Assembly: GCA_017533785.1 (NCBI GenBank)
Contig: JAFWII010000020.1
Span: 1-64,000 of the forward strand
From: Erysipelotrichaceae bacterium
GTDB taxonomy: Bacteria; Bacillota_I; Bacilli_A; Erysipelotrichales; Erysipelotrichaceae
Direction: 5' to 3'
Length of the DNA: 64,000 nt
The notes under the pieces were generated by a model that saw nothing but the letters and a program-made list of their open reading frames with translations, made no database searches and was not told the origin of the DNA. Below are positions 1-16,644 of this stretch, piece after piece. Position 1 is the first letter of the stretch, and every line of letters starts with the position of its first letter. The position numbers and the translations under genes are program-made.

Positions 1-140
1 AGGATCGACCAGGGCTGATCGATCCCTTGAACTACTATCTGAGCAGTTCGTGTTAACAATACAAATGTAGCGCCGTATACGAGACCCGTACGTGCGGTGC
101 AACGGGAGGGGCGGGACTAACAATCCCCCTCTACCCTATT
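1..140 (+). mobile_element. 3' end of a group II intron (domains V and VI), cut by the window edge
   Basis: Positions 70-100 fold as a group II intron domain V. The basal stem pairs 70-76 with 94-100, and 71-73 reads CGC at the place of the catalytic triad (CGC is known from class C introns). Positions 104-136 form a domain VI-like helix in which 106-111 pairs with 126-131. A133, in a small UA bulge, is a plausible branch point, which puts the 3' splice site near 139-141. Positions 2-8 and 19-25 form another 7-bp hairpin. The reverse-transcriptase ORF would lie left of the window and is not seen. Class assignment is uncertain. Confidence 0.75.
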
Positions 141-147
141 ATATCAG

Positions 148-169
148 ACGGTCTTCAGGGACCGTTTTT
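148..169 (+). terminator. Hairpin with T run at the intron/esterase junction
   Basis: A 6-bp stem (148-153 with 160-165) is followed by a T run at 165-169, in plus orientation. It overlaps the stop codon of the convergent esterase gene and lies just 3' of the intron. Confidence 0.5.
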
Positions 170-989
170 AAAATGCGTTTCCTTCGCCGCCTTTTTCCGG
201 AAGGAAGAAGTCGAGCGCTTTCTGGATGCCGAGTTCCCAGAAGCGCCATTCATGGTTGTAACCGGGAACTTCCTCGAATTCTGCCGCGAAACCGACCTTT
301 TCGGCATACGCGCGGAATTTTTTGAAATTTTCATACATGATGAAGTCCTTATCGCCGCAGGAGAAAGCGAAACGCGGCAGATCTTTGCTGCCGGCGGATT
401 CTTTCACCTTGTCCCAGGTGTTGTCGGGAGATGCAAGATACGCTTCCAGACCGCCGGCATTGTCCAGCTGGTTCTGCGTACGGTAAGCCCAGAAAGAGTT
501 CTTATTGAAGTCACGAATGTCACGCGGACAGGAGGACAGGATGTAAGCTGCCTCGAAAAGCTGCGGATGATTGATCGCGTATTTAAAGGCGCCGATGCCG
601 CCCATCGAAAGACCGCAGATGAAGTTGTCTTCCCGTTTGTCGCTTGCCGGCAGCCAGCCATAGATCAGCGGCATCAGCTCTTCGGTCAGATAATCATACA
701 TATTGAAACCCATGCCGAAGCCCTGCCAGTTGGAATAATCGGAGTTCAGCCCGCTGGGCATGACGACGATCAGTTCTCTCTCACAGGCATAGAGTTCGAT
801 ATTGGACCGGCGGATCCAGTCGCTGCTGTCACCGAAAGTGCCATGCAGAAGCCAGAGAACGGGATACTTCTTTCCGCTGCGGTAGAAGTCGGCAGCCTCG
901 CTGCCGCGTTTGAGATCGGGCATGATCACGTTGACGCTGGTATTTCCGAAGAGGCAGCTGCTTTGAAAATTCAGTTGAAATAAAGCCAT
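168..989 (-). CDS. Esterase of the alpha/beta-hydrolase fold (EstA / esterase D-like)
   Basis: This 273-residue cytosolic protein has no signal peptide and fits the putative-esterase family that includes tributyrin esterase EstA and S-formylglutathione hydrolase. An LLHG oxyanion segment lies at about 47-50. The nucleophile elbow GLSMGG puts Ser at 128, an acidic residue sits in CGDKD (213 or 215), and His246 lies in YNHEW, giving a complete triad. The start is supported by an AGGAG site at 998-1002 on the minus strand. The gene is divergent from the sugar ABC operon and may release acyl groups from carbohydrate, which is inferred from position only. The natural substrate cannot be read from sequence. 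Confidence 0.85.
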   Translation of the reverse strand: MALFQLNFQSSCLFGNTSVNVIMPDLKRGSEAADFYRSGKKYPVLWLLHGTFGDSSDWIRRSNIELYACERELIVVMPSGLNSDYSNWQGFGMGFNMYDYLTEELMPLIYGWLPASDKREDNFICGLSMGGIGAFKYAINHPQLFEAAYILSSCPRDIRDFNKNSFWAYRTQNQLDNAGGLEAYLASPDNTWDKVKESAGSKDLPRFAFSCGDKDFIMYENFKKFRAYAEKVGFAAEFEEVPGYNHEWRFWELGIQKALDFFLPEKGGEGNAF

Positions 990-1051: not shown

Positions 1052-1102
1052 AGCCGCGGGAGAGAGAAGTCGTAAATCTGAAATGCAAAAGTCGTTTTTT
1101 TA

Positions 1103-1116
1103 TGAAAACGTTTTCA
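1103..1116. promoter_or_regulatory. 14-bp perfect palindrome, cre / LacI-family operator candidate
   Basis: TGAAAACGTTTTCA is fully palindromic and matches the catabolite-responsive element consensus TGWAANCGNTNWCA. It lies about 95 bp upstream of the sugar ABC ATPase start and within the divergent region shared with the esterase. It could be bound by CcpA or by a LacI-family repressor; no such gene is in the window. Confidence 0.65.
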
Positions 1117-1211
1117 GGAGTCGCAAAAGTGATATGAATATTGTCGTTTTCAAGGCGGAAGGCTTTTCTTTTTCCGTGGTAAAACAATGGAGAGAAAGGG
1201 GGACAAGCTTT

Positions 1212-2720
1212 ATGGGAAAAGGCGAAGTATTGGTCGAAGTCCGGGATCTGTGTAAGAATTTCGGTGTCACAGTAGCTCTCGATCACGTAAACATGCAGAT
1301 CAAACGCGGCGAAGTACGCGGTCTGATCGGTGAAAACGGTTCAGGAAAATCCACTGTCACGACCATTATCGCAGGCATTCAACAGGCGACCAGCGGCGAA
1401 ATGTTCTATAAAGGAAAGCCCTGGAAACCGCAAACTTCTCTGGAAGCAGTCAAAGCCGGTATCGGCATCATCGTTCAGGAAATGGGTACCATCCCGACGA
1501 TCTCCGTTGCAGAAAACATTTTCCTCGGCGATTATGACAAATTCCGTACCGGGATCATTATCAACCGCCACAAGATGGTAGCTGCTGCACAGAAGGCTCT
1601 GGACGACATCGGCGTAACCGATATCAAAGCCGGCGACATCACCGCGAAGTACAACATGGAACAGCGCAAACTCATCGAGATTGCGAAAGTCATGGCGCAC
1701 GAACCGGAAATGTTTGTCGTCGACGAAACCACGACCGCTCTTTCTGAAAGCGGAAGAACGATCCTTTACAACTTAATGCATAAGGCGGCAGCCGAAGGGA
1801 AAGCCGTCGTCATGATCAGCCACGACCTGGACGAGATCATGGAACACTCTGACACTCTGACGGTCCTGCGCGATGGTGTCATCATCGACAACATCGAAAA
1901 GAAGGATTTCGAAGCGAATGACATCAAGCAGAAAATGATCGGCCGTGAAGTCGGCGGCAACTACTACCGTGTCGACATGGACGGTTACGAAGAGGACAAA
2001 GTCGTTCTAAAGGCAGACTGTATTACCACGATGAACAACCTGCTCTGCTTCGATCTCGAACTGCACAAAGGCGAGATCCTGGGCATTGGCGGCCTGTCCG
2101 AATGCGGTATGCACGATCTGGGAAGAGCACTCTACGGTCTGGATGAAGTTATCGACGGTGAAGTACGCCTGACGAAAAACAACATCAAGATCACGAGTTC
2201 TGAAATCGCCTTCGCGCACGGCATGGGCTATGTCTCCAAGAACCGCGATACAGAATCCCTTGTCATGAATGCTTCGATCGGCGACAACATCGCTTCTACC
2301 GGCTACAAGGAAAACCGCGGCTTCGGTCCCTTCATCTCCAACAAAAAGGAGAGACAGTACCAGCAGCTGCAGGTCGACAGCCTCGCTATCAAGTGTGTCA
2401 ATGTCTTCCAGCCGGTCAGCGCGCTTTCCGGCGGCAATAAGCAGAAAGTCGTCTTCGGTAAATGGCTGGCTGCGGATTCCGACGTCCTGATCCTCGACTG
2501 CCCGACCCGCGGCGTCGACATCGGCGTCAAGGCAGCGATGTATCAGCTGATCTACGATATGAAAAAAGCGGGTAAATCCATCGTTCTCATCTCGGAAGAA
2601 CTTCCGGAGCTCTGCGGTATGAGCGACCGTCTGCTCATCATGAAAGAAGGAGCTGTCACCGGTGAATTCTTCCGCAAAGAAGGCTTCGACAACAACGCAT
2701 TGATCGACTGCATGATCTAA
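1212..2720 (+). CDS. Sugar ABC transporter ATP-binding protein, two ABC domains (RbsA/MglA-like)
   Basis: This protein energises import of a monosaccharide-like solute with the permeases and binding protein that follow. It has 502 residues in two ABC domains. Domain 1 has Walker A at 40-48 (GENGSGKST), Asp171-Glu172 in Walker B and His204 in the H-loop, but its signature region (about 147-152, YNMEQR) is far from LSGGQ. Domain 2 has no regular Walker A, a good LSGGNKQ signature (405-411), and Cys430 where the catalytic Glu normally follows Asp429. A degenerate second nucleotide site is common in CUT2 ATPases; the Glu-to-Cys change is notable. The start at 1212 follows a GGAGAGAAAGGGGG site; an in-frame ATG at 1083 lacks one. 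Confidence 0.9.
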   Translation: MGKGEVLVEVRDLCKNFGVTVALDHVNMQIKRGEVRGLIGENGSGKSTVTTIIAGIQQATSGEMFYKGKPWKPQTSLEAVKAGIGIIVQEMGTIPTISVAENIFLGDYDKFRTGIIINRHKMVAAAQKALDDIGVTDIKAGDITAKYNMEQRKLIEIAKVMAHEPEMFVVDETTTALSESGRTILYNLMHKAAAEGKAVVMISHDLDEIMEHSDTLTVLRDGVIIDNIEKKDFEANDIKQKMIGREVGGNYYRVDMDGYEEDKVVLKADCITTMNNLLCFDLELHKGEILGIGGLSECGMHDLGRALYGLDEVIDGEVRLTKNNIKITSSEIAFAHGMGYVSKNRDTESLVMNASIGDNIASTGYKENRGFGPFISNKKERQYQQLQVDSLAIKCVNVFQPVSALSGGNKQKVVFGKWLAADSDVLILDCPTRGVDIGVKAAMYQLIYDMKKAGKSIVLISEELPELCGMSDRLLIMKEGAVTGEFFRKEGFDNNALIDCMI

Positions 2721-2735
2721 GGAGGGAGGAACATT

Positions 2736-3740
2736 ATGTCACAGAAAAACGAACTGACACATGATGCACCCAAGCTTACTCTTGTGGATCGCATCGATAT
2801 CATCAAAAACCACAGACTCTTCCCGGTGATCTTCCCGCTGAGCATGCTGGTGGTGATCTTCCTGATCTTCATCGTTCTGACAGGCGGAAGATTCGCAGAC
2901 ACCAGAGTTCTGACAGGTGTCTTCAACCAGAGTCTGATCGTCGCTACGATGGCAACCGCTGTCGCCTTCATCTATTCCACCGGCAATATCGATATTTCCG
3001 TCGGTAACGTTATGGGTCTGGCAGCCTGCCTCGGTGCACTGGCTTACCAGGTTACCCAGAGCATGACGGTCATGATCGTCGTCACAATGGCCGTCGGCAT
3101 CGTTCTGATGATGTTCAACTGCGTCCTCGGTCTGGTCTTCAACGTCAAGAGCGCCATGGTCGCGATCGTTGCCATGTCGGTCTACGGCGCGATCACCTCG
3201 GTACTCGTCGGCGCAGAACCGATCGGTGTCGACTTCAAGGCATGCAAGGTCCTTGAAGGGAATTTCCGTTACATTGCCTTCGTATTATATTTCGTCGTCT
3301 GTCTGCTTGCTTTCAGCCGGACCGCGATCGGACGCAAGCTGCGTTTCATCGGCGGTAACGAGAACTGCGCGGAACAGACGGGCATCAACCGCAAAAAAGC
3401 GATCGCAACATCCTATATCTTCGCTGGCATCGGTGTCGGACTGGCAGGCGTCTTCCAGGTACTGCGTACCGGAAACGTCGCCCAGACGATCGGCTCCGGT
3501 ATGGGCATGGACGTCATGCTGGCGACAGTCTTGGGCGGTATGTCCATCTTCGGCGGTGCGAAATCCAACACCTTCGCCGGCTTCGTCGGCGCGGTCACGG
3601 TCACCGTCCTGAACACAGGTCTGCTGATGATCGGTGTTCCTTCCACTCTTATCCAGGGCTTCCGCGGTGTCTTCTTCCTGATCCTGGTCTTCCTGAACAG
3701 CGAAAGACAGAAAACACTCCCGAGCCGTCAGCAATTCTAA
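2736..3740 (+). CDS. Sugar ABC transporter permease (RbsC/BPD_transp_2 family)
   Basis: A 334-residue integral membrane protein that fits the CUT2 permease family (ribose/galactose/xylose type). Many hydrophobic helices are seen, and a GINRKKAIATSYIF segment in the later cytoplasmic loop resembles the family's EAA-like region. It starts 15 bp after the ATPase with an AGGAGGGAGG site. A second, different permease follows at 5109, so the transporter probably uses a heterodimeric channel. The substrate is not readable, although the downstream sulfatases and GH3 point to a sulfated or glycosylated sugar. Confidence 0.9.
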   Translation: MSQKNELTHDAPKLTLVDRIDIIKNHRLFPVIFPLSMLVVIFLIFIVLTGGRFADTRVLTGVFNQSLIVATMATAVAFIYSTGNIDISVGNVMGLAACLGALAYQVTQSMTVMIVVTMAVGIVLMMFNCVLGLVFNVKSAMVAIVAMSVYGAITSVLVGAEPIGVDFKACKVLEGNFRYIAFVLYFVVCLLAFSRTAIGRKLRFIGGNENCAEQTGINRKKAIATSYIFAGIGVGLAGVFQVLRTGNVAQTIGSGMGMDVMLATVLGGMSIFGGAKSNTFAGFVGAVTVTVLNTGLLMIGVPSTLIQGFRGVFFLILVFLNSERQKTLPSRQQF

Positions 3741-3772
3741 AAGAAAAGATTATTACGAAAGGAAAAAACAAA

Positions 3773-5023
3773 ATGAAAAAGCTCTTAACAATCCTGCTTT
3801 CCCTGATGATTGTCATTGGTCTGGCAGCCTGCAACAACTCCGGCAGCACACCTTCCGGTGAAGGCGATGTATCCGGCAAATCCTACAAGATCGGTGTCGT
3901 TGAAGTAATGCTGAACGATGAATCCGTCATCCGCTCCAAATACTTCAAAGAGTACATCGGCCCGAAATACAACGTTGAATTCATGTTCTCCGAAGCATGC
4001 ACAGACCTCGACTCTGTCATGAAGTTCATCGAAAATGCTGCTGTCTCCGGCTGCGACGCGATCCTGAACTACTATGCTGTCGGTGCCAACTCCGAACAGC
4101 TGGCTCTCCTTTGCCAGGAAAAGGGTATGATCCTCGTTGAAAACGGCGGACGCAACGCTGCAAACGAAGAAGCTTACAAGAACTATACCGATACATACGC
4201 CGGCGGCTTCATGGCTGACCAGCCTGACACAGGCCGTCTGTTCAGGGAATACCTCGAAGCAAACCTCGATCCGACCGTTGAACACAACTTCATCGTCGGT
4301 ACCGGCGGCGCTTATCAGGGCAATGCGCAGCAGACAGAGATCTCTATCAACATGCTGACAGCTCTGCAGGATGTCTACGGTCTGAAATACGACAAGACCA
4401 TCCAGGAACTCATCGAATCCTCTTCCCCGATCGAAGCTACAAACGATAAGGGCATCGCGATCTACTGCTACCCGGGTCACGCAACTGCTGAGGGATGGCT
4501 TCCGGGCCTCTCCGCTGCTCTGCAGACAGGCACCTATGACTACGTTCTGATGTCCGGAAACGTTATCGGCAACATCGGTACCGTTATCTCCGAAGCAGAA
4601 GCAGTTCTGAACAAGGACATCACTGTTGTCGGTTTCGGTTCCTTCGGTGACGCTCTCTCCAACGCTATGCACACATTAGACCAGTTCGGCAATCCGACAG
4701 TTTCCATGTCCACTGTTAAATTCACAACTCTGGTCTCCGCTATGGGCTTTGCCAAGGCTTACAACGCTCTGACAGGTCATAACGAAGTCAACATCGACAC
4801 TGACGGCGCTGCCTTCACACATCTGTTCCGCATGAACGCTGTCACAAGCGCTGCTGAACTCGATGAAATGGGCTCCTGGGACAAGGATAACGACAGCTGG
4901 GTCGCTGACTACAGTGTTGTCGACAGCTTCCTCGCAGAAAAGACCCCGGGCCTGACCGCTCAGCAGTTCCAGGAAAACATCTACGCAGTCAACTACGAAT
5001 CCATCAAGGCCCGCATGCAGTAA
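3773..5023 (+). CDS. Sugar-binding lipoprotein of the ABC transporter
   Basis: This is a 416-residue periplasmic-binding-protein-like lipoprotein. The N-terminus has a Lys-rich start, a hydrophobic core and the lipobox LAAC with Cys20 as the lipidation site. The body resembles type 1 solute-binding proteins (RbsB-like): an early strand at about 38-45, a segment around residues 80-90 describing a pocket loop, and alternating alpha/beta structure. It would sit on the outside of the membrane and deliver sugar to the flanking permeases. It is longer than E. coli RbsB (about 296 residues), which fits a larger ligand. It lies between the two permease genes. Confidence 0.88.
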   Translation: MKKLLTILLSLMIVIGLAACNNSGSTPSGEGDVSGKSYKIGVVEVMLNDESVIRSKYFKEYIGPKYNVEFMFSEACTDLDSVMKFIENAAVSGCDAILNYYAVGANSEQLALLCQEKGMILVENGGRNAANEEAYKNYTDTYAGGFMADQPDTGRLFREYLEANLDPTVEHNFIVGTGGAYQGNAQQTEISINMLTALQDVYGLKYDKTIQELIESSSPIEATNDKGIAIYCYPGHATAEGWLPGLSAALQTGTYDYVLMSGNVIGNIGTVISEAEAVLNKDITVVGFGSFGDALSNAMHTLDQFGNPTVSMSTVKFTTLVSAMGFAKAYNALTGHNEVNIDTDGAAFTHLFRMNAVTSAAELDEMGSWDKDNDSWVADYSVVDSFLAEKTPGLTAQQFQENIYAVNYESIKARMQ

Positions 5024-5108
5024 GCATGCCGGCCTTGAAGGCCAGCCTTATAAAAACGCAAACGTTAACTTAACAGTTTATCAATAGAAAAGGGGGAGTG
5101 AACCAAGT

Positions 5109-6137
5109 ATGGGAAACGTATTAAGCAAAGACAGATTACTCGGCATCGTGAAAACGGTAGCCGTCCCCGCTGTTGTCTGGATCCTGATGGAACTGATCTG
5201 CCGCACTCAGGCAGGTACCAGCGTCGTCGCTAACTCCGCGGATGTCCGCACTTTCTTCCGCAACATGGTCTCGACCGTCGCCTTCGCACTGGCGATCAGC
5301 ACGAACCTGAACTGCGGTCGTATGGACCTTTCTCTTGGCGCGCAGATGTATGTCGGTACGATCTTCGGCGGAAATATCGCTCTCGCTCTCAATCTCGGCG
5401 GCGTTGGCGTTCTCGTCCTCGCAATGCTGATCGGCGGCCTCTGCGGCCTGATCTGCGGTATCGTCTTCGTCAACCTGCGCATCCTGCCGATGGTTCTGGG
5501 TCTCGGTATGACGCTCTTATTTGAGTGCATCTGTTTCTCCATCAATAACCAGCAGGGCGTCATCCTCTACGGCAAGCCGGGTGTTGAGATCCTCTCCAAC
5601 AGCACCTTCATCATCTTCGTCGTCATCGCTCTTGTCGCAGTCGCTGCACTCTTATTCAAGTACAGCCGCTTCGGTTACCGTTACCGCGCCATCCAGGGAA
5701 GCCAGAAACTGGCTTCCGATGCCGGTATCAATATCTTCAGCAACTGTGTCTTCTGCTATCTCTTCGGAGGTATACTGGTCGCCTGCGCCGGTGTCTTTAC
5801 AACGATGTATTCAGGCTCTCTGGCTCCGGTTCTGGGCATGAGCTCCAACGGATACGTATTCCGCAATATGTTCCCGATGGTCTTGGGTGCCTGGATCGGC
5901 AGCTTCAGCCATAATGCCCAGTTCGGCGTCGCAATGGGCGCGATCTGCGTCAACCTGCTGACACTGGCTATGTCCAAACTGGGTCTTCCGCTGAACGTAC
6001 AGAACGTTCTGGTCTACTCGCTGTTCCTGTTGTTCATCATCTACAACACCAACAAGCGCAAGTTTGCATACAACAGAGCAAAACGTGCCCGCATCGCGCT
6101 GGCAAAGCAGACGAAAGCTGCAAGACAGCCTGCATGA
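5109..6137 (+). CDS. Second sugar ABC transporter permease
   Basis: A 342-residue multi-spanning CUT2-type permease with a GINIFSNCVFCYLFGG loop, distinct in sequence from the permease at 2736. It starts after an AAAGGGGGAGTG ribosome binding site. Its TGA overlaps the ATG of the first sulfatase in an ATGA arrangement, so transport and desulfation are translationally coupled. A weak GGCC-stem hairpin lies in the 85-bp gap from the binding-protein gene and may set relative expression. Confidence 0.88.
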   Translation: MGNVLSKDRLLGIVKTVAVPAVVWILMELICRTQAGTSVVANSADVRTFFRNMVSTVAFALAISTNLNCGRMDLSLGAQMYVGTIFGGNIALALNLGGVGVLVLAMLIGGLCGLICGIVFVNLRILPMVLGLGMTLLFECICFSINNQQGVILYGKPGVEILSNSTFIIFVVIALVAVAALLFKYSRFGYRYRAIQGSQKLASDAGINIFSNCVFCYLFGGILVACAGVFTTMYSGSLAPVLGMSSNGYVFRNMFPMVLGAWIGSFSHNAQFGVAMGAICVNLLTLAMSKLGLPLNVQNVLVYSLFLLFIIYNTNKRKFAYNRAKRARIALAKQTKAARQPA

Positions 6138-7639
6138 AAGCTGTAATGGTCATGTACGACTCCCTCCGCCTGGATTGTTTACCAAGCTACGGCGGAAAGG
6201 AGATCGCGCTGCCGAATTTCGAAAGATTGGCAGCTCATTCGGTAGTCTTTGACAAGAGCTATGTATGCTCGCTGCCCTGTATGCCTGCAAGAAGAGAACT
6301 TCATACCGGCCGCCCCAACTTCATTCACCGGAGCTGGGGCCCGCTGGAGCCCTTCGATGACTCCATGCCGGAACTGCTCAAGCAGCACGGTATCTATTCA
6401 CGTCTCGTGACCGATCACAACCATTACGTGGAAGACGGCGGCGGGACTTACTGCCCCCGCTACTCGACCTGGGAATGCAACCGCGGCCAGGAAGGTGATC
6501 CGTGGGCAGGACATGTTAACCACAACGTTCCGAAGAATCCTCATACACTGACCAAACTCGACGCAATGCCGGAACCGGTCGCGAAAGTCATGGGAAAACT
6601 CTACGCCCAGGATGTCTACAACCGTGAAAAATTCACCGCAACGGAAGACTATCCGCAGGCGAGGACATTTGCCCAGGGCCTGGAATTCCTCGAGAACAGT
6701 TTCCAGGAGGATAACTGGTTTATCCAGATCGAAACATTCGACCCGCATGAGCCTTTCGACGCTCCGAACGACTATGTCAGCAAACTCTTTGACCCCGATC
6801 AGGTCTCCGAACTCGACTGGCCGCCGTACGCACGGGTCAACGAGCCGCAGGAGGTCATCGATCAGATCCGCCGCAAATACCTGGCTCTGCTCGCCTTCTG
6901 TGATGACAGCCTTGGAAAGGTGCTCGATGTCTTCGATAAGTATGACTTATGGAAGGATACCCTGCTGATCGTCAACACCGATCACGGTTATCTGCTTGGC
7001 GAACACGGCTGGTGGGCCAAATCCATGATGCCGGATTATCAGGAGATCGCGCATACGCCGCTGTTCATCTGGGATCCGCGTTCCGGAAAGAAGGGCGAAC
7101 GCCGTCAGAGCCTCGTGCAGACGATCGACCTGGCGCCGACCATCCTCGAATACTTTGGTCTCGAGATCCCGAAGGACATGCTGGGCAAACCGCTGCGCGA
7201 AGTCATCGCGAATGACGAAGCTGTTCGTGAATACGGGATCTTCGGTTCCCACGGCGGACCGATCAGCATCACCGACGGGCAGTATGTCTATATGGTTGCA
7301 CCGGTCCCGAACCATCCGGAGCTCTACGATTACACGCTGATGCCGACACACATGCGTGCCCGCTTCAGCGTTGCGGAGATGCAGCAGGCGACACTTGCCG
7401 AGCCGTTCGGCTTTACCAAGAACTGCCCGGTCCTGAAGATCCCCGCGCAGGTCAAGGCAATGACGGTTCCGGAACTGATGGAAGGTCAGACTGTGCTCTT
7501 TGATGTGATCAGCGATCCGCAGCAGACTTCCCCGATCCGGGATGCGGCCGTAGAGGAACGCATGAGAAAAGCGTTAATCGAGATCCTTAAAGAAAACGAA
7601 ACACCCGAAGAATACTACGCTATTTACGGGCTGAACTAA
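6134..7639 (+). CDS. Sulfatase 1, Cys-type, cytosolic
   Basis: This enzyme hydrolyses a sulfate ester, likely on an imported sugar. It has 501 residues and no signal peptide, so it should act in the cytosol. The formylglycine signature C-x-P-x-R is complete: Cys49, Pro51 and Arg53 in CMPAR, followed by the HTGR segment. An N-terminal Asp (residue 9) and a DTDHGYLLGEHG segment (about 278-289) supply the expected metal and substrate residues. Activity needs conversion of Cys49 to formylglycine by an anaerobic sulfatase-maturating enzyme, which is not in the window. The start overlaps the permease stop by 4 bp. Confidence 0.93.
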   Translation: MKAVMVMYDSLRLDCLPSYGGKEIALPNFERLAAHSVVFDKSYVCSLPCMPARRELHTGRPNFIHRSWGPLEPFDDSMPELLKQHGIYSRLVTDHNHYVEDGGGTYCPRYSTWECNRGQEGDPWAGHVNHNVPKNPHTLTKLDAMPEPVAKVMGKLYAQDVYNREKFTATEDYPQARTFAQGLEFLENSFQEDNWFIQIETFDPHEPFDAPNDYVSKLFDPDQVSELDWPPYARVNEPQEVIDQIRRKYLALLAFCDDSLGKVLDVFDKYDLWKDTLLIVNTDHGYLLGEHGWWAKSMMPDYQEIAHTPLFIWDPRSGKKGERRQSLVQTIDLAPTILEYFGLEIPKDMLGKPLREVIANDEAVREYGIFGSHGGPISITDGQYVYMVAPVPNHPELYDYTLMPTHMRARFSVAEMQQATLAEPFGFTKNCPVLKIPAQVKAMTVPELMEGQTVLFDVISDPQQTSPIRDAAVEERMRKALIEILKENETPEEYYAIYGLN

Positions 7640-7643
7640 AAAC

Positions 7644-7678
7644 AAACGGCCCTCCGCTTTTTACGGAAGGCCGTTTTT
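7644..7678 (+). terminator. Terminator-like hairpin between sulfatase 1 and GH3
   Basis: AAACGGCC (7644-7651) pairs with GGCCGTTT (7669-7676), with extra inner CCG/CGG pairing, and is followed by T's to 7678. It sits inside an otherwise continuous operon, so it probably attenuates transcription rather than ending it. Confidence 0.7.
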
Positions 7679-7699
7679 CCCCAGAGAAAGGAAGAATTT

Positions 7700-10045
7700 A
7701 TGAAAGACAAGATCAACAAACTGCTTCAGGAAATGACGCTGGAAGAAAAAGCCGCGATGTGTTCCGGATTCGACTTCTGGCATATTCAGGGCGTCGAACG
7801 TCTTGGCATCCCGAACATCATGATCACCGACGGTCCGCACGGCCTTCGCAAACAGGCAGGTGCAGCTGACCATCTCGGTCTTAACGCGTCTGTACCGGCG
7901 ACCTGTTTCCCGCCGGCAGTCACGACTGCCAGCAGCTGGGACAGAGAGGCGATCCGCCGGCAGGGATCTGCTATCGCCGAAGAATGCATTCAGGAAGAAG
8001 TTGCCGTCGTGCTCGGGCCGGGCACGAACATCAAACGTTCTCCGCTGTGCGGCCGTAATTTCGAATACTTCAGTGAAGATCCGCTGCTTGCCGGCGAAAT
8101 GTCTGCAGCGATCATCGACGGCATACAGGAAAAGGGTGTCGGCACTTCACTTAAGCACTTTGCCGCAAATAACCAGGAAAAGGCGCGCCTCACCTCCAAC
8201 TCGGTGATCGACGAGAGGGCTCTTTGCGAGATCTATCTGAGACCTTTTGAGAAAGCGGTCCGCAAATCCCAGCCCTGGACGCTGATGTGTTCCTATAACC
8301 GCATAAACGACGAATACTCCTGTGAAAACGACTGGCTGCTCAATAAGAAGCTGCGTCAGGAGTGGGGCTTCAAGGGTATCGTCATGACCGACTGGGGCGC
8401 AATGAACGAGCGTGTCAAAGCTCTGAAAGCCGGTCTGGAGCTTGAGATGCCGGGCAAGGACAGCTACAATGACCGGCTGATCGTCGAAGCTGTCAATAAC
8501 GGCGAACTCGATCCGGCCGTCCTCGATGGCGCAGTCGGCAGACTGCTCGAGATCATCTTGCGCTTCGCGGAAGTCAAAAAGGCTCCCTACGATGCAAAGG
8601 CGCATCACGCTCTGGCAAGAGAGATCGCCGGTGGCTCCCTCGTTCTGCTCAAGAACGAGGACGCTCTGCCGCTTGATGCCGGAAAGAAGTACGCAGTCCT
8701 GGGCGCATTCGCGAAAAAACCGCGCTATCAGGGTGCCGGCAGCTCCAAGATCAACTGCCATAAGGTCGATGAACCGTTCGCAGAACTGACCGGACTGGGC
8801 ATCGATGCCGTTTACGCTCCGGGATATTCTCTGGAGAACGATGAAGTCGACGAAGTCCTGTTGCAGGAAGCAGTCGAATGCGCGAAGAATCAGGACGCGG
8901 TCATCGTCTTCGCCGGTCTGCCGGATGCTTACGAGAGCGAAGGCTTTGACCGTACGCATATGAATATGCCGGCGAGCCATAACGCGCTGATCGAAGCGGT
9001 CGCGGAAGTCAATGATAATGTGACTGTTGTTCTGATGTGCGGTTCTGCGGTAACGATGCCGTGGCTCGGCAAAGTCAACGCTGTTCTGCTTGCATACCTT
9101 GGCGGCGAAGCAGCCGGTGGCGCTATTGCTGACGTTCTGACGGGCAGAGTCAATCCATCCGGCAAGCTGGCAGAGACCTTCCCGGTCTGCCTTGAAGACA
9201 ACCCGTCCTACGGTTTCTTCGCGACCGAGGATCCGGATGTCGAGTACCGTGAAAGCATCCTTGTCGGTTACCGTTTCTATGACTGGGCGGACAAAGAAGT
9301 CCTCTTCCCGTTTGGTTACGGCCTGAGCTATACGAAATTTGCTTACGAGGGTCTGGAAGTCTGCTGGGATGACGAAACCGGAAAAGGCGAAGCCAGAGTC
9401 ACTGTCCGCAACTGCGGAGAGCGTGACGGCAAAGAAATCGTCGAACTCTATATCGCCAAGAACGGCTCTGCCGTTCTGCGTCCGGTCCGCGAGCTCAAGG
9501 GTTTTGCCAAGGTCTTCCTTGCTGCCGGCGAGACAAAGACGGTTGCGATCCCGCTCTGCAGATGCGCATTCTCCGCATATGACCGTTTCAGCCACAGCTG
9601 GAAGATCGAGGATGGCAGCTATACCGTCTTCGCCGGTTCGAGCAGCCGCGAACTGCCTTTATGCGCTGAAGTCTGCGTAAAGGGTGAAGCTCTTACGCCG
9701 GACTATATCTATACACAGGAAAAAGCACTCAGGGACGGCCGTCTTTCGGTCAGCTTCGAAGCGTTTGCAAAACTCTTTGAAGGCGAAGTCCCGCTCCATA
9801 AGGATGACGGAAGACCTTCCGTCAACATGTCCGTACGTCAGGCTCTGGAGAACGAAAAGGTACGTCCGCTGGTCGAACCGTTTGCAGAAGCCTACAAGAA
9901 ATCCTACGAAGGCCGCACGGATGATATCGCCGTGATGATGCTGGCGATGTTCTATGATATGCCGCTGCGCTCTTTGTCCCTGTTCACCGGCAGACACGGT
10001 TACTTCCAGGACGCGATCGCTGCGCTGAATAAAGGAGAGGAATAG
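7700..10045 (+). CDS. Glycoside hydrolase family 3 beta-glycosidase
   Basis: A 781-residue GH3 enzyme that should remove terminal beta-linked sugars by a retaining mechanism. The N-terminal barrel carries TDGPHG (43-48) and KHFAANN (152-158), and the nucleophile is Asp231 in VMTDWGAM. The C-terminal half has the family's alpha/beta sandwich (VLLKNED, GAGSSKIN) and a fibronectin III-like end. An extension of about 100 residues follows the usual FnIII end, with no recognised domain. No signal peptide is present, so it works on imported substrate, in line with its sulfatase neighbours. The start follows an AGAAAGGAAG site. Confidence 0.92.
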   Translation: MKDKINKLLQEMTLEEKAAMCSGFDFWHIQGVERLGIPNIMITDGPHGLRKQAGAADHLGLNASVPATCFPPAVTTASSWDREAIRRQGSAIAEECIQEEVAVVLGPGTNIKRSPLCGRNFEYFSEDPLLAGEMSAAIIDGIQEKGVGTSLKHFAANNQEKARLTSNSVIDERALCEIYLRPFEKAVRKSQPWTLMCSYNRINDEYSCENDWLLNKKLRQEWGFKGIVMTDWGAMNERVKALKAGLELEMPGKDSYNDRLIVEAVNNGELDPAVLDGAVGRLLEIILRFAEVKKAPYDAKAHHALAREIAGGSLVLLKNEDALPLDAGKKYAVLGAFAKKPRYQGAGSSKINCHKVDEPFAELTGLGIDAVYAPGYSLENDEVDEVLLQEAVECAKNQDAVIVFAGLPDAYESEGFDRTHMNMPASHNALIEAVAEVNDNVTVVLMCGSAVTMPWLGKVNAVLLAYLGGEAAGGAIADVLTGRVNPSGKLAETFPVCLEDNPSYGFFATEDPDVEYRESILVGYRFYDWADKEVLFPFGYGLSYTKFAYEGLEVCWDDETGKGEARVTVRNCGERDGKEIVELYIAKNGSAVLRPVRELKGFAKVFLAAGETKTVAIPLCRCAFSAYDRFSHSWKIEDGSYTVFAGSSSRELPLCAEVCVKGEALTPDYIYTQEKALRDGRLSVSFEAFAKLFEGEVPLHKDDGRPSVNMSVRQALENEKVRPLVEPFAEAYKKSYEGRTDDIAVMMLAMFYDMPLRSLSLFTGRHGYFQDAIAALNKGEE

Positions 10046-11529
10046 TGGAAAAGCGTCCGGATATCCTGCTTTTCATGTCTGATCAGCATTCCGCCGCCCA
10101 GATGCACTGGGCCGGCGGAATTGCGGAAACACCAAATCTGGACGCGCTTTCCGCCGAGGGAACTTCCTTCACGCAGGCGTATACCAGCTGTCCGCTCTGT
10201 GTGCCTGCACGCATGTCTTTCCTAAGCGGGCTTTTACCGAGCAGAACCGGGGTACTGACCAACAACGATACCCTGGCGGATACGACACCGACCTTCCTTC
10301 ACGCCCTGGTCTCCACAGGGTATGAGACCGTACTGATCGGCCGTATGCATTTTGTGGGCAGAGATCAGCTGCACGGTTTTACCAGACACATCGGCGGCGA
10401 TATGACACCTGTTACCTGGAACCGCCCGGTTGAACGGATCGCAGAAGAACGCGGGATCATGCGCATGGGGTATGCCTATTTCGGAGCGCTGCAGGTCATG
10501 GGTGCCGGAGAAAGCCCGGTGCTCCATTTCGACGAGCACATCATCGCGACCGCAAAAGACTATCTGGCACAGCCGCATGAAAAACCGCAGTTCATCCTTG
10601 TCGGCACCTACGGTCCGCATTTTCCGTATGTCGCCCCGGGAGATCTCTACTTTAAATATAAAGACCGGATCGCGGCTTTGGGCGAGGCCGAACAGTTCAA
10701 CGAGCAGAAAGACTACATCGAGAAGAACATCTTCCTGAAGAGCCGTCAGCTCGGATCTTCCGCTGAAGAGGCGCTGGAGGCAAGAGCTGCCTACTGTTCT
10801 CTGGTCGAAAAGATGGATTCGCAGATCGGAGAGATCCGGGAAGCGTTCAGAAACTATGGGAAAACCAGCGGCAGGGGGCAGATCTTCGGCTATACCAGTG
10901 ACCACGGAGACATGAATGCTGTCTTAGGCATGTATGGCAAGCAGACCTTCTTTGATCCCTCGGTCCGCATTCCGCTGCTGCTGAGCGGGGAGGGCATTCC
11001 ACAGGGAAGAAAGATCGGAAGCCCTGTCAGTATCATGGACATCGGTCCGACGCTCTGCGAACTGGCCGGGACCTCCTTCGAAACGGCGGATTCCTTCTCT
11101 CTGGCTTCGCTTGAAGAGGATACGATCGCCAAAAGAGGTGCGGTCCACAGCCAGGTCTGGGAAGGGCTCAATCCCTTTCAATATCCTGATGACAAGCGTC
11201 ACAGTTTCGGTGCAATGGTCATCAAAGACGGATACAAATTTATCTCCTACGACGGTTTTGATGAGGATATCCTCTTTGATGTCCTTAATGATCCCTTTGA
11301 AAGGGAGAACCTCAATGCAGTCAGAAAGGATGTTGCCGAAGAACTCAGGGAGTTGTCCCTTAAGGAAGCCAAAGCGGCAGATATCATTGCGCAGCAGGCA
11401 CAGAGAGAACGCAACGCCGCCTATTTCGCCGCATACGAAAGAATGACAGGAGAACTTGAAAAACTCGACGATCAGTGGCGCTGGCGCGGCAATCCGCCGA
11501 CCGCCCGTGATCTTCCGAAAGAGAAGTAG
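10045..11529 (+). CDS. Sulfatase 2, Cys-type, cytosolic
   Basis: A 494-residue S1-type sulfatase with Cys52-x-Pro54-x-Arg56 (CVPAR) and SDQH near the N-terminus (12-15) as the metal-binding Asp region. A TSDHGDM segment (about 289-295) supplies the second metal-binding Asp and His. No signal peptide is seen. It starts with GTG, whose first base is the last base of the GH3 stop codon, after AAAGGAGAGG; the two are tightly coupled. It differs clearly from sulfatases 1 and 3, which suggests that each removes a sulfate at a different position or from a different sugar. Confidence 0.93.
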   Translation: MEKRPDILLFMSDQHSAAQMHWAGGIAETPNLDALSAEGTSFTQAYTSCPLCVPARMSFLSGLLPSRTGVLTNNDTLADTTPTFLHALVSTGYETVLIGRMHFVGRDQLHGFTRHIGGDMTPVTWNRPVERIAEERGIMRMGYAYFGALQVMGAGESPVLHFDEHIIATAKDYLAQPHEKPQFILVGTYGPHFPYVAPGDLYFKYKDRIAALGEAEQFNEQKDYIEKNIFLKSRQLGSSAEEALEARAAYCSLVEKMDSQIGEIREAFRNYGKTSGRGQIFGYTSDHGDMNAVLGMYGKQTFFDPSVRIPLLLSGEGIPQGRKIGSPVSIMDIGPTLCELAGTSFETADSFSLASLEEDTIAKRGAVHSQVWEGLNPFQYPDDKRHSFGAMVIKDGYKFISYDGFDEDILFDVLNDPFERENLNAVRKDVAEELRELSLKEAKAADIIAQQAQRERNAAYFAAYERMTGELEKLDDQWRWRGNPPTARDLPKEK

Positions 11530-11541
11530 GAGAGGATACAG

Positions 11542-13140
11542 ATGAAAAAACGTCCGCATATCATTATCTTCAACCCGGATGAAATGCGCTGGGATACGAT
11601 GGGCCATATGGGTAATCCGGCTGCCGTGACACCGTTTCTTGACAGCTTTGCCGAAAAGGAAGCCGTTTCCTTCTCTCAGGCTTTCTGTCAGAATCCGGTC
11701 TGCGTGCCAAGCCGATGTTCTTTCTTCACCGGTCTTTACCCGCATGTCCGCGGGCACCGGACGATGAACCATCTTCTGCATCCGGATGAACCCGATCTGT
11801 TTTCCGAACTGAAGCGCAGCGGCTATCATATCTGGATGAATGACCGCAATGACCTCTATGCCGGGCAGATTCCCGGCTGGTTCGAGGAACATGGTGATGA
11901 AATTTTCTACGGCGGAAAAAAGATAACTACCAACCGCAGTGAGAAGATGGCCGGTTTCCGGAAAGGGAATCCGGACTATTATTCCCACTACGAAGGCAAA
12001 CTGCTTCCTGATAAAGACGGAAGATGCGTAATCTCCGATCAGGAAAGCGTGGATGCAGCGGCGGAATACATTCGCAGCTATGACCGTGAAGAACCGCTGT
12101 GTCTGTTTTTGGGGCTGCTTTATCCGCATGTTCCCTATCAGGTCGAAGAACCTTACTATTCTCAGATCGACCGCAGCAGGCTTTCAAAACGCGTACGCTT
12201 TGAGGACTGCGCGGGGAAATCGAAGATCCTTGCCGACATCCGGCACTATCAGCAGCTTTCCGATATGAGCGAAGCCGAATGGGATGAGATCCGGGCTGTT
12301 TACCTTGGTATGTGCAGCAAGATCGACGCCTTGTTTGAAGAACTCTGTCAGGCGCTGAAAGATGCAGGAATGTATGATGACAGCGCGATCTTCTTCCTCA
12401 GCGATCACGGTGATTTTGCCGGGGATTACGATCTGACCGAAAAAGCTCAGAGCGCCTATGAGGACTGTCTGAGCCGTGTGCCGCTGCTGATCAAGCCCCC
12501 GAAGGGGGAGGGGCTTGATCCCGGCACCACGGATTCGCTCGCAGAACTTGTAGACTTTTACGCGACAGCTGTTGACTATGCCGGCGTCGAACCGCTGTAT
12601 ACACATTTCGGACGCAGTCTGCGCCCGGTCATCGAAAACCGCAGCCGCAGCGTCCGGAACTTTGTCCACTGTGAAGGCGGACGTCTTCCGGAAGAAAAAC
12701 ACTGCGATGAGTATCACAGTTTCGGACCGTCCGGTCCGGATCCCCGTTTCGTCTACTGGCCGAAGATGATGGCCCAGCTCGATGATCAGGCACACGCCAA
12801 GGGGACAATGATCCGTTCGAAGGAGTACAAATATGTCGAACGCATCAGCGGCGAGAATGAATTCTACTGTCTGAAAGATGACCCGCAGGAAAAGCAGAAC
12901 CGGATCTCAGATCCGATGTTCCGGGAAGAGATCAGCCGGATGCGCGGGGAACTTCTGCGCTGGCTGATGAAAACTGCAGATACAGTACCGTATACATATG
13001 ATGCCCGCTTTACCGAGGAAATGGTATGGGCTAGAGTAAAGCGCTTCTGTCCTCCGGAAAAAGAGGAGGAGACGCGCAAAAAGATCCGTGAAGGCGTCAA
13101 CATGTTTACCCTGATCGCGGAACTGCGCAACGCGGAATAA
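11542..13140 (+). CDS. Sulfatase 3, Cys-type, cytosolic
   Basis: A 532-residue sulfatase. The signature CVPSR gives Cys54, Pro56 and Arg58, followed by FFTGLYPH, a classic run for this family. The SDHGDFAGD segment (about 290-298) holds the second metal-site residues. An N-terminal NPDEMRWD takes the place of the more usual D-D-x pair. There is no signal peptide. The gene starts 12 bp after sulfatase 2 with an AGGAGAGGAT site, and a strong 10-bp hairpin follows it. Its substrate is not predictable beyond a sulfated sugar. Confidence 0.93.
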   Translation: MKKRPHIIIFNPDEMRWDTMGHMGNPAAVTPFLDSFAEKEAVSFSQAFCQNPVCVPSRCSFFTGLYPHVRGHRTMNHLLHPDEPDLFSELKRSGYHIWMNDRNDLYAGQIPGWFEEHGDEIFYGGKKITTNRSEKMAGFRKGNPDYYSHYEGKLLPDKDGRCVISDQESVDAAAEYIRSYDREEPLCLFLGLLYPHVPYQVEEPYYSQIDRSRLSKRVRFEDCAGKSKILADIRHYQQLSDMSEAEWDEIRAVYLGMCSKIDALFEELCQALKDAGMYDDSAIFFLSDHGDFAGDYDLTEKAQSAYEDCLSRVPLLIKPPKGEGLDPGTTDSLAELVDFYATAVDYAGVEPLYTHFGRSLRPVIENRSRSVRNFVHCEGGRLPEEKHCDEYHSFGPSGPDPRFVYWPKMMAQLDDQAHAKGTMIRSKEYKYVERISGENEFYCLKDDPQEKQNRISDPMFREEISRMRGELLRWLMKTADTVPYTYDARFTEEMVWARVKRFCPPEKEEETRKKIREGVNMFTLIAELRNAE

Positions 13141-13150
13141 GACGCAAAAG

Positions 13151-13178
13151 AGGACTGCCCGGGGGAAAGGGCAGTCCT
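13151..13178 (+). other. Intercistronic 10-bp hairpin
   Basis: AGGACTGCCC (13151-13160) and GGGCAGTCCT (13169-13178) pair perfectly across an 8-nt loop, but no T run follows. It may stabilise the sulfatase mRNA or act as a processing site. It is not a standard terminator. Confidence 0.6.
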
Positions 13179-13214
13179 GCCATTGCAAACCGTGTCAGCG
13201 AAAGGAGGAACACA

Positions 13215-13793
13215 ATGAGCGAAAAAACAAGATCTGCATTCTATGATCAGCCTCATCCGTACATTTCGCTTTTCATCAAAATGCTGACGATCTCCGCCTT
13301 CACCTTCGGTGGCGGTTTCGTCATCATCAGCATGATGCGGCGTACTTTCGCCCAGAAACTGAAATGGCTGGATGATCAGGAAGTCCTGGATATGACGGCG
13401 ATCGCTCAGTCGGCGCCGGGTGCCCTGGGAGTCAACAGCGCGATCATTTTCGGCTATCGCATTGCCGGGATCCCGGGTGTCGCGATCTCTCTGACGGCAA
13501 CGGTCATTCCACCGCTGGTCATCCTTTCGGTCCTGGCGTTTTTCTATAAACAGTTTATCGGCAACCCGGTCGCCCAGACGGTCATGCAGGTCCTGCGTGC
13601 CGGGGTGGCGGCAGTCATCGTGGATGTGGTGATCGATCTTGCCTCGAATGTGATCAAGTCGAAAGATGTACTGAATCTCGTGCTGATGATCGCGGCCTTC
13701 CTGGCGCTTGCGGTCTTTAAGATCTCTTCTCTGGCTATCATTTTGATCGCGCTTCTGATCGGCATTTTTCCGATGGGAGGGAAAAAGGAATGA
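13215..13793 (+). CDS. Chromate transporter (CHR) family half-protein A
   Basis: This 192-residue membrane protein matches one half of a ChrA-type anion transporter. Features include FTFGGGFVIISMM near the N-terminus (about 29-41), an AIAQSAPGALGVN loop (about 62-74) and several hydrophobic helices. Short CHR proteins work as pairs, and a second half overlaps it by 4 bp. Known family members move chromate, a sulfate analogue. Following three cytosolic sulfatases, sulfate export is an attractive role (inference). The start follows GAAAGGAGGAACACA. Confidence 0.85.
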   Translation: MSEKTRSAFYDQPHPYISLFIKMLTISAFTFGGGFVIISMMRRTFAQKLKWLDDQEVLDMTAIAQSAPGALGVNSAIIFGYRIAGIPGVAISLTATVIPPLVILSVLAFFYKQFIGNPVAQTVMQVLRAGVAAVIVDVVIDLASNVIKSKDVLNLVLMIAAFLALAVFKISSLAIILIALLIGIFPMGGKKE

Positions 13794-14347
13794 TCTATCT
13801 GCAGTTATTTACAACATTCTTTCTGATCGGTCTTTTCTCCTTCGGCGGCGGCTATGCCGCAATGCCCTGGATCCTTTCGCTTGTCGTTGAACAGCGTCAC
13901 TGGCTGACGATGGCAGAGTATGCGGACCTGACGGCGATCGCCGAGATGACACCCGGTCCGATCGGCGTCAACGCCGCGACTTTTGTCGGTACCCGGCTCG
14001 CCGGTCTGTCCGGCGCGGTGATCTGCACTTTAGGGTGCATCACACCCTCTCTGATCATCGTTCTTTTCCTGGCCTTCCTTTACGGAAAGTACCGCGATCT
14101 GTCTCTGATGAAGACGATCCTGCACCGTCTGCGCCCGGTCGTTGTCGCATTGGTCGCTTCAGCCGGTCTGACGATTTTCCGGCTGGCATTATTCGGGGAA
14201 AACGGGGGGCTGGCAGATGTCCGCTATGTCGAACTTGGTCTCTTTCTTCTGGCGCTTCTAATCCTGCGGAATACGAAAATCTCTTCGATTCTTGTGCTGC
14301 TGGGAAGCGCTGCTCTGGGAACGGTCATCTATTTGTTTATTCTGTAA
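13790..14347 (+). CDS. Chromate transporter (CHR) family half-protein B
   Basis: A 185-residue partner of the previous protein with matching landmarks: FSFGGGYAAMPW (about 17-28) and AIAEMTPGPIGVNAATFVG (about 46-64). The PGPIGVN loop is the hallmark of the family. Start and stop overlap as ATGA, so the two halves are made together and likely form one antiparallel transporter. Function as a sulfate or other oxyanion exporter is inferred from the locus. Confidence 0.87.
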   Translation: MIYLQLFTTFFLIGLFSFGGGYAAMPWILSLVVEQRHWLTMAEYADLTAIAEMTPGPIGVNAATFVGTRLAGLSGAVICTLGCITPSLIIVLFLAFLYGKYRDLSLMKTILHRLRPVVVALVASAGLTIFRLALFGENGGLADVRYVELGLFLLALLILRNTKISSILVLLGSAALGTVIYLFIL

Positions 14348-14397: not shown

Positions 14398-15378
14398 ATG
14401 AACAAACCATACAAGATCTGCCTTGATATCGGAGGCACCAAGATCCTCGGAGTGATCTTCAATGAAAACAACGAGATCATCTACCGTCTGAAAAAACGCA
14501 CCAAAGGAAGCGGTGAAGGGACCGAGAATGTCGAACAGGTCATCATCAGTGTAGTTGCGGAAATGGTCAAGAAATCCGGGATCAGCCTGAAACAGGTCCA
14601 GGGGATCGCTGCCGGCGCACCGGGAGTCATCGATCAGGAAAACGGCATTATCCTGTTCTCACCGAATCTGCCCTGGCGTGACTATGACATTCGTACACCG
14701 CTGGAAAAGAAATTCAAAGTACCTTTCTACATCGGCAACGATGTCAATATCGGTATCCTGGGCGAATACAAACATGGCGCCGGCCGGGGATATACCAACG
14801 TTGTTGGCTTTTTTGTCGGCACCGGCATGGGCGGCGGTCTGATCCTGGACGGCAAGCTGTATACCGGCTCACATTTCAAGGGAGCGGAATACGGTCACAT
14901 GATCCTTGATCCCGAAGGCCCGGTCTGCAACTGCGGACAGAGAGGCTGTCTTGAAGCCTTCTCCAGCAAGCAGGGAATCACCAAATACATCCGCCGTCAG
15001 GCTTCCAGAGGAAGAGAAACGATGATGGCGGAGCATCTTGAAGGCGGTACTTTCCGCAGCAAATATCTCAAACAGGCGCTGCGCAAAAAAGACCCGGTCA
15101 CTGTTGAAGCAGTAAACCGCGCCTGCCACTGGCTGGCGGTTGCGACCGGCAATATGATCAATACCTTCAGTCCGGATGTCGTTATTTACGGCGGCGGCGT
15201 TGTGGAAGCGACCGGAGACATCTTCGTCAATAAGATCCTGAAAGAAGTCGATAACTACTGCATGCCTTCGATCCGCTCGACCGTTGAGCTGAAAAGCGCC
15301 GCGCTGGGCGATGATTCGATCGTCTATGGCGCCCTGTCTCTCATTGAGGATGCGCAGGCAAAAAGGCTGCATAACTGA
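14398..15378 (+). CDS. ROK family sugar kinase (glucokinase-like)
   Basis: A 326-residue ROK protein that phosphorylates a hexose with ATP in the cytosol. It has the N-terminal phosphate-binding DIGGTK (10-15), a GTGMGGG segment (about 141-147), and the ROK zinc motif CNCGQRGCLE (about 178-187), preceded by the EYGHMIL segment whose His is a zinc ligand. There is no N-terminal DNA-binding domain, so it is an enzyme and not a NagC-type regulator. Its place after the sulfatases and GH3 suggests it captures the freed sugar. The start follows an AGAAAGGATATGTC leader. Confidence 0.88.
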   Translation: MNKPYKICLDIGGTKILGVIFNENNEIIYRLKKRTKGSGEGTENVEQVIISVVAEMVKKSGISLKQVQGIAAGAPGVIDQENGIILFSPNLPWRDYDIRTPLEKKFKVPFYIGNDVNIGILGEYKHGAGRGYTNVVGFFVGTGMGGGLILDGKLYTGSHFKGAEYGHMILDPEGPVCNCGQRGCLEAFSSKQGITKYIRRQASRGRETMMAEHLEGGTFRSKYLKQALRKKDPVTVEAVNRACHWLAVATGNMINTFSPDVVIYGGGVVEATGDIFVNKILKEVDNYCMPSIRSTVELKSAALGDDSIVYGALSLIEDAQAKRLHN

Positions 15379-15492: not shown

Positions 15493-16644
15493 ATGGCAAA
15501 TCGCTTTGTATTAAATGAAACATCCTACCATGGCGCCGGTGCGATCAACGAGATCGTTACCGAATTCAACGCCCGCGGCTTTAAGAAGGCTTTCGTCGCA
15601 ACTGACCCGGATCTTGTGAAATTCGGTGTTTCCGCGAAAGTCACCGACCTGCTCGAAAAAGCAGGCATCGCATACACCCTGTACTCCAACATCCAGCCGA
15701 ACCCGACCATCGAAAACGTTCAGTCCGGTGTCAAGGCGTTCGCGGAAGCGGAAGCTGATGTCATCATCGCGATCGGCGGCGGCTCTTCCATGGATACCGC
15801 GAAGGCGATCGGCATCATCAACACCAACCCGGAATTCGCGGATGTACGTTCCCTGGAAGGCGTAGCCCCGACAAAGAAACCGTGCACTCCGATCTTCGCT
15901 GTTCCGACCACGGCCGGTACTGCTGCGGAAGTCACCATCAACTACGTCATCACCGATGTTGAGAAGAAGCGCAAATTCGTCTGTGTCGATGTTCATGACA
16001 TCCCGGTCGTCGCATTCGTCGATCCGGATATGATGGCTTCGATGCCGGCTTCTCTGGCCGCTGCTACGGGTATGGACGCCCTGACCCATGCGATCGAAGG
16101 CTACATCACCGGCGGTGCCTGGGAGCTTTCCGATATGTTCCACATCCGTGCGATCCAGCTGATCGCCAAGAACCTGCGCGCTGCCGTCAAGGGCGAGCCG
16201 GAAGGCCGTGAGGCAATGGCGCTGGCACAGTACATTGCCGGTATGGGCTTCTCCAACGTCGGTCTGGGTGTCGACCACTCCATGGCGCACACCCTGTCCG
16301 CTTACTACAACATGCCGCACGGCAAGGCATGCGCTACTCTCTTGCCGACGGTCATGGCATACAACGCTCCGGTCACCGGTGAGAAGTACCGCGATATCGC
16401 TGCCGCATTCGGCGTAGAAGGCGCCTACACGCTGCCGCTCGAGGAAGCGAGAGCCGCTGCCGTCGCTGCTGTCAAACAGCTCGGTGAAGACGTCGGTGTC
16501 AAGATGTCCCTGAAGGACGTCGTTCCGATGGAAGACATCGACGCTCTGTCCGCAGACGCTTTAAAGGATGCCTGCACCCCCGGCAACCCGCGCCCGGTCA
16601 CTGTTGAAGACATTAAGGAAATGTTCCTGTCTTTGATGAAGTAA
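15493..16644 (+). CDS. fucO: Iron-dependent alcohol dehydrogenase, lactaldehyde reductase-like
   Basis: This 383-residue group III alcohol dehydrogenase is the same length as E. coli FucO, which reduces lactaldehyde from fucose or rhamnose breakdown to 1,2-propanediol using NADH. The nucleotide-binding GGGSSMD lies at 95-101. The iron ligands are visible as Asp195, His199, His262 and His276. It has its own strong promoter, with a terminator on each side, so it is a single-gene unit, probably highly expressed. It fits the adjacent sugar locus, though it could equally reduce other short aldehydes. Family assignment is firm; the substrate is less so. Confidence 0.88.
   Translation: MANRFVLNETSYHGAGAINEIVTEFNARGFKKAFVATDPDLVKFGVSAKVTDLLEKAGIAYTLYSNIQPNPTIENVQSGVKAFAEAEADVIIAIGGGSSMDTAKAIGIINTNPEFADVRSLEGVAPTKKPCTPIFAVPTTAGTAAEVTINYVITDVEKKRKFVCVDVHDIPVVAFVDPDMMASMPASLAAATGMDALTHAIEGYITGGAWELSDMFHIRAIQLIAKNLRAAVKGEPEGREAMALAQYIAGMGFSNVGLGVDHSMAHTLSAYYNMPHGKACATLLPTVMAYNAPVTGEKYRDIAAAFGVEGAYTLPLEEARAAAVAAVKQLGEDVGVKMSLKDVVPMEDIDALSADALKDACTPGNPRPVTVEDIKEMFLSLMK

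Follow-up and report, generated by a model that had tools for sequence, protein, structure and literature searches.

The window analysed here is a stretch of 64,000 nucleotides of contig JAFWII010000020.1 (GCA_017533785.1, Erysipelotrichaceae bacterium). It makes up the left portion of contig C7 in a genome of 1.8 Mb, 88% complete, whose closest named relatives are metagenome-assembled genomes from ruminant guts labelled Erysipelotrichaceae. Near the left end, genes for the import and desulfation of sugars are directly followed by two genes of the CHR family of transporters (CHR1 and CHR2), and this CHR pair is the subject of the present analysis. The features of the region are as follows.

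68-139, plus strand: domain V of a group II intron, the 3' intron part (Rfam RF00029, 34.7 bits, E 1.4e-5, under the gathering score of 40)
168-989, minus strand: putative esterase (PF00756, E 2e-18)
1083-6137, plus strand: sugar importer of the ATP-binding cassette (ABC) type, with ATPase (1083-2720), permease (2736-3740), binding lipoprotein (3773-5023) and permease (5109-6137)
6134-7639, plus strand: cytosolic S1 sulfatase 1, motif CMPAR (PF00884, E 3e-36)
7700-10045, plus strand: GH3 glycosidase (PF01915/PF00933)
10045-11529, plus strand: cytosolic S1 sulfatase 2, motif CVPAR (PF00884, E 5e-39)
11542-13140, plus strand: cytosolic S1 sulfatase 3, motif CVPSR (PF00884, E 1.5e-33)
13151-13178, plus strand: 10-bp GC-rich hairpin in the gap between sulfatase 3 and CHR1, with no T-run on this strand
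13215-13793, plus strand: CHR1, short-chain CHR protein of 192 aa (PF02417, 139.6 bits)
13790-14347, plus strand: CHR2, short-chain CHR protein of 185 aa (PF02417, 156.4 bits)
14398-15378, plus strand: ROK family protein (PF00480)
15493-16644, plus strand: lactaldehyde reductase (PRK10624, over cut-off)

Both CHR proteins belong to the CHR family, with PF02417 scores well over the gathering score of 28.6, and as two adjacent single-domain genes they form a short-chain pair; all the sampled relatives of these genes are pairs too. CHR1 begins 74 bp after sulfatase 3 and overlaps CHR2 by 4 bp, so the ChrA-like pair that a first-pass annotation had placed right after the sulfatases is indeed present (13215-14347). 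PF02417 alone was found in the pair by the Pfam scan, with no match to PF01925 (TauE/SafE), and a relative with a solved structure, sought by sequence, was not found. The pair resembles YwrB/YwrA (Chr3N/Chr3C) of Bacillus subtilis, likewise two adjacent CHR genes of about 190 aa with PF02417, which constitute a chromate efflux system whose regulation has been proposed to avoid the co-extrusion of sulfate (PMC8940164). However, YwrB/YwrA serve in chromate tolerance with the regulator ChrS (PMC8940164), whereas the pair in the window is flanked by sulfatases.

The three upstream proteins are S1 sulfatases, containing PF00884 and an intact C-x-P-x-R motif in all cases (3/3) together with the metal-binding Asp and His residues (D9, D283 and H284, invariant). 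Their PF00884 matches begin at residues 4, 5 and 5, which leaves no space for a signal peptide and indicates that the enzymes are cytosolic, in agreement with the earlier claim that all three lack such peptides. In anaerobes, sulfatases with the Cys motif are matured by the anaerobic sulfatase-maturating enzyme (anSME), and the genome encodes one (G000:C9:18800-19867; TIGR03942, 377.6 bits against a cut-off of 349.45). Across the family, many anSME genes are found away from any sulfatase detected by the model used (e.g. L155, L158 and L173), and some anSME-bearing genomes have no S1 sulfatase match.

Assimilation, which the first-pass annotation had considered as a use of sulfate that would make export needless, finds no candidate genes. 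ATP sulfurylase (PF01747) was over the cut-off in 0 of 244 genomes, and no phosphoadenosine or adenosine phosphosulfate (PAPS/APS) reductase (PF01507) was found in the window's genome, itself 88% complete; the released sulfate is therefore left without an evident use. We suggest, with a probability of roughly 0.55, that the two CHR proteins are the subunits of an inner-membrane oxyanion exporter, which removes the sulfate freed in the cytosol by the sulfatases of the window. The ABC importer would bring sulfated sugars into the cell, where the three anSME-matured sulfatases would desulfate them; the two short CHR proteins, judging from what is known of the family, would form one carrier that exports the sulfate and relieves the build-up of this product in the cytosol. 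CHR proteins are reportedly driven by the proton motive force and probably are chromate/sulfate antiporters, as Nies et al. are said to have proposed in 1998. We infer for this strain that sulfate is the substrate, that it moves outward, driven by the proton motive force or by exchange, and that its transport is functionally coupled to the sulfatases.

The known sulfated-sugar loci of anaerobes combine a sulfatase, an anSME and an importer of the ABC or phosphotransferase system (PTS) type. The window's genome is similar in having the importer, Cys-type cytosolic sulfatases, anSME, a glycosidase and a two-component regulator, but it differs in that the exporter slot is held by a CHR pair.

The association was surveyed in depth in two families of one class. 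Eighty regions of up to 20 kb from 47 Erysipelotrichaceae genomes were picked by sulfatase score only (77 after merging overlaps, 1.34 Mb). They contain 8 CHR pairs, in 7 of the 80 regions, while 1.18 would be expected, the density in sulfatase-bearing genomes being 0.87 pairs per Mb; CHR pairs are thus enriched near sulfatases, as the exporter interpretation had anticipated. Direct contact was counted for 213 sulfatase and anSME genes, including those of the window and a few counted twice in overlapping regions. Five are in same-strand contact with a CHR gene (the window, L077, L098, L205 and L206) against about 0.2 expected, and two are in opposite-strand contact (L072 and L102), all contacts together being expected about 0.4 times on the assumption of 950 genes per Mb. 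Two of the same-strand cases are in a second family of the order: L206 has the order sulfatase, anSME, CHR, CHR, in which successive genes are 12 bases apart, 4 bases apart and overlapping, and L205 has sulfatase, CHR, CHR. No CHR gene was found in 46 additional anSME loci of Erysipelotrichaceae, mostly with no sulfatase in view, a sample from which the 20 last regions were left out. In the open-access literature we found no paper on the topic of CHR or chromate transporters joined with sulfatases.

A second line of evidence comes from TauE/SafE proteins, which in 10 loci are encoded immediately beside a sulfatase or anSME gene (PF01925 was confirmed for five of the TauE/SafE proteins in the locus set). 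Among the homologues of the window's cassette, L072 combines the importer and the esterase with sulfatases 1 and 3, a LysR regulator, a CHR pair and anSME; in L090 the importer, two sulfatases and the esterase are followed by TauE/SafE, and in L070, L071 and L074 neither transporter is in view. A comparable arrangement is known in the sulfatase/PTS/ROK island of Streptococcus pneumoniae, where TauE is found beside the sulfatase-modifying factor (PMC3283741). As in the window, these loci place a membrane transporter for anions right next to anSME or sulfatase genes, but TauE/SafE is unrelated to CHR, and the window's pair may work like one without being a member. That the corresponding position can be filled by an anion exporter of an unrelated family is the strongest pointer available to a shared function.

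Several observations weigh against a role of the CHR pair in sulfate export. The loci come from related genomes, so that the Poisson probabilities of the excess (P about 3e-5, or 1e-3 using only the 6 clearest) overstate independence, and 73 of the 80 sulfatase regions have no CHR gene in view. As a control, 30 CHR pairs were chosen by their Pfam score and nothing else: 29 have unrelated neighbours, and the sole pair adjoining anSME is the G201 locus, already counted as L098. The window's genome holds two further CHR pairs away from sulfatases, and the scores with the NCBIfam equivalogs for chromate-efflux ChrA and ChrB are far under the cut-off of 250 (61.5 and 56.9 for CHR1; 63.7 and 84.2 for CHR2). 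Sulfatase 3 is separated from CHR1 by the hairpin at 13151-13178 (fold z -4.2), which makes their co-transcription plausible but not certain. Two of the CHR pairs, in L102 and L209, adjoin gamma-glutamyltranspeptidase genes. The congeneric genomes G001 and G003 keep DUF2500, the CHR pair and ROK, while neither anSME nor an S1 sulfatase of the window's kind was found in them. In a third congeneric genome, G002 (L016), the orthologous CHR pair adjoins the suf operon for iron-sulfur assembly. As a detail of its structure, the hairpin has a perfect 10-bp stem with a T-rich tail on the minus strand only.

The comparison with the two sulfatase-free sisters is informative on the position of the cassette. 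Their CHR2 orthologues are 92% identical, and after the CHR pair G001 continues with ROK, lactaldehyde reductase and further genes, as the window does; upstream, both have DUF2500 in place of the sulfatases, and G001 a nitroreductase gene as well. In the window's genome, DUF2500 is carried by contig C9, where it immediately precedes anSME; genes for a histidine kinase and an AraC-type response regulator come next. At its end (L210:13746-13842), C9 shows a weak match (E 0.047) to the 5' portion of group II introns. Such an intron apparently lies within the sulfated-sugar cassette and caused the assembly to break where the window starts. The natural reading of these matches is that C9 and C7 would join across the repeated intron, giving the order nitroreductase, DUF2500, anSME, kinase, regulator, intron, esterase, importer, sulfatases, CHR pair and ROK. 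The locus L071, where a YdjC gene and a regulator of the type found in the window's genome precede the importer and sulfatases, agrees with this order, by which the whole cassette would lie precisely between DUF2500 and the CHR pair. No foreign base composition was seen in the cassette when looked for, and both a gain in the window's genome and a loss in the sisters fit; either way, the CHR pair extends beyond the sulfatase-bearing genomes.

In the CHR tree, the sulfatase-linked label changes at least 6 times on well-supported branches, so that the linkage arose or was lost repeatedly. Nine of the 11 linked pairs are in one subclade of 24 rows, which also has 15 unlinked pairs, many of them fetched by their similarity to the window. 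A dedicated sulfatase-linked CHR clade was rejected on account of this mixture, and the spread is better matched by a general oxyanion exporter recruited on several occasions than by a dedicated lineage. The pair of the window is probably a resident general oxyanion transporter, not purpose-built, which the cassette abuts and which it may have recruited. The placement of a cassette beside a resident transporter would have occurred in several independent cases in related bacteria, with CHR pairs or TauE/SafE in the slot. The exporter interpretation of the first-pass annotation is thus partly supported: the enrichment, the lack of assimilation genes and the TauE/SafE proteins in the equivalent slot speak for it, while a role dedicated to the three sulfatases is not supported, as orthologous pairs are present in sulfatase-free sisters.

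Plain coincidence was our first conclusion from G001 and G003, and it was revised after the family-wide survey showed the excess. A related explanation is that the pair is an ancestral housekeeping transporter of chromate or another oxyanion, part of a block CHR-CHR-ROK-lactaldehyde reductase, with the cassette merely inserted upstream (or lost in the sisters) and no joint work between them. The sister genomes, with the same flanks and no cassette, argue for it, as do the presence of CHR pairs in 218 of the 244 family genomes regardless of sulfatases and the occurrence of same-clade pairs in unrelated places, such as L061 among housekeeping genes. Yet it leaves unexplained both the excess of CHR beside sulfatase and anSME genes in other genera and a second family, and the TauE/SafE proteins in the equivalent place, and we regard it as rather unlikely.

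The pair could also carry some other anion of the pathway or of general sulfur metabolism (sulfite, an organic sulfate or sulfonate, thiosulfate or an organic acid) instead of free sulfate. This would suit TauE/SafE, the apparent equivalents, known for sulfite and sulfonates, and the CHR pairs beside suf genes (G002) or gamma-glutamyltranspeptidase; it seems improbable, however, since three hydrolytic sulfatases would be expected to yield no sulfur product other than sulfate, which is also the classical analogue of chromate. That sulfate leaves through a different carrier, for instance TauE/SafE or SulP elsewhere in the genome, and that the adjacency is due to chance, would agree with the many sulfatase regions lacking CHR in view, but the direct adjacency recurs, which makes this very improbable.

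Beyond the window, we tentatively propose, at somewhat less than even odds, that short-chain CHR pairs recur as an exchangeable module for sulfate export in the sulfated-glycan loci of Gram-positive anaerobes whose sulfatases are cytosolic, with a role equivalent to that of TauE/SafE. If true, this would give a physiological role other than detoxification to a widespread transporter family. Short CHR pairs are present in about nine in ten genomes of the family, and chromate would be an unlikely daily threat in the ruminant guts from which the named relatives come, so that their physiological substrate is a question. On the other side, the cytosolic desulfation of sugars needs a disposal of sulfate, and we found no dedicated exporter for this step in the open-access literature. 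The recurrent link between CHR and sulfatases, with TauE/SafE as alternative, makes both questions directly testable.

Other genes of the region show different degrees of association with the cassette. The esterase travels with it, as hidden Markov model matches place homologues beside sulfatases in L070, L072, L082 and L090, and the gene order of the importer is common to L072, L071, L074 and L090. The GH3 gene between sulfatases 1 and 2, absent from the title of the earlier annotation, has alpha-L-arabinopyranosidase as its best NCBIfam match, under the cut-off, and the nearest relatives of sulfatase 2 with solved structures are choline sulfatases. In sulfatase-free relatives the CHR pair keeps ROK on its right, in an order common to L015 and L007, and lactaldehyde reductase is the next gene kept in L015.

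Four loci (L102:768-3580, L209:4467-7217, L072:121-4680 and L037) have a gamma-glutamyltranspeptidase gene adjacent or close to a CHR pair, possibly a separate association tied to thiol or glutathione metabolism; the case of L102 and L209 as sulfatase-linked pairs is weakened by these neighbours and by their separate position in the tree. Four sulfatase-linked loci have a LysR regulator transcribed divergently from the CHR pair (L072:7865-8737, L098:3396-4274, L099:10527-11399 and L149:14849-15757), and similar regulators also adjoin CHR pairs for which no sulfatase is in sight (L063 and L067); this regulator may sense the transported anion.

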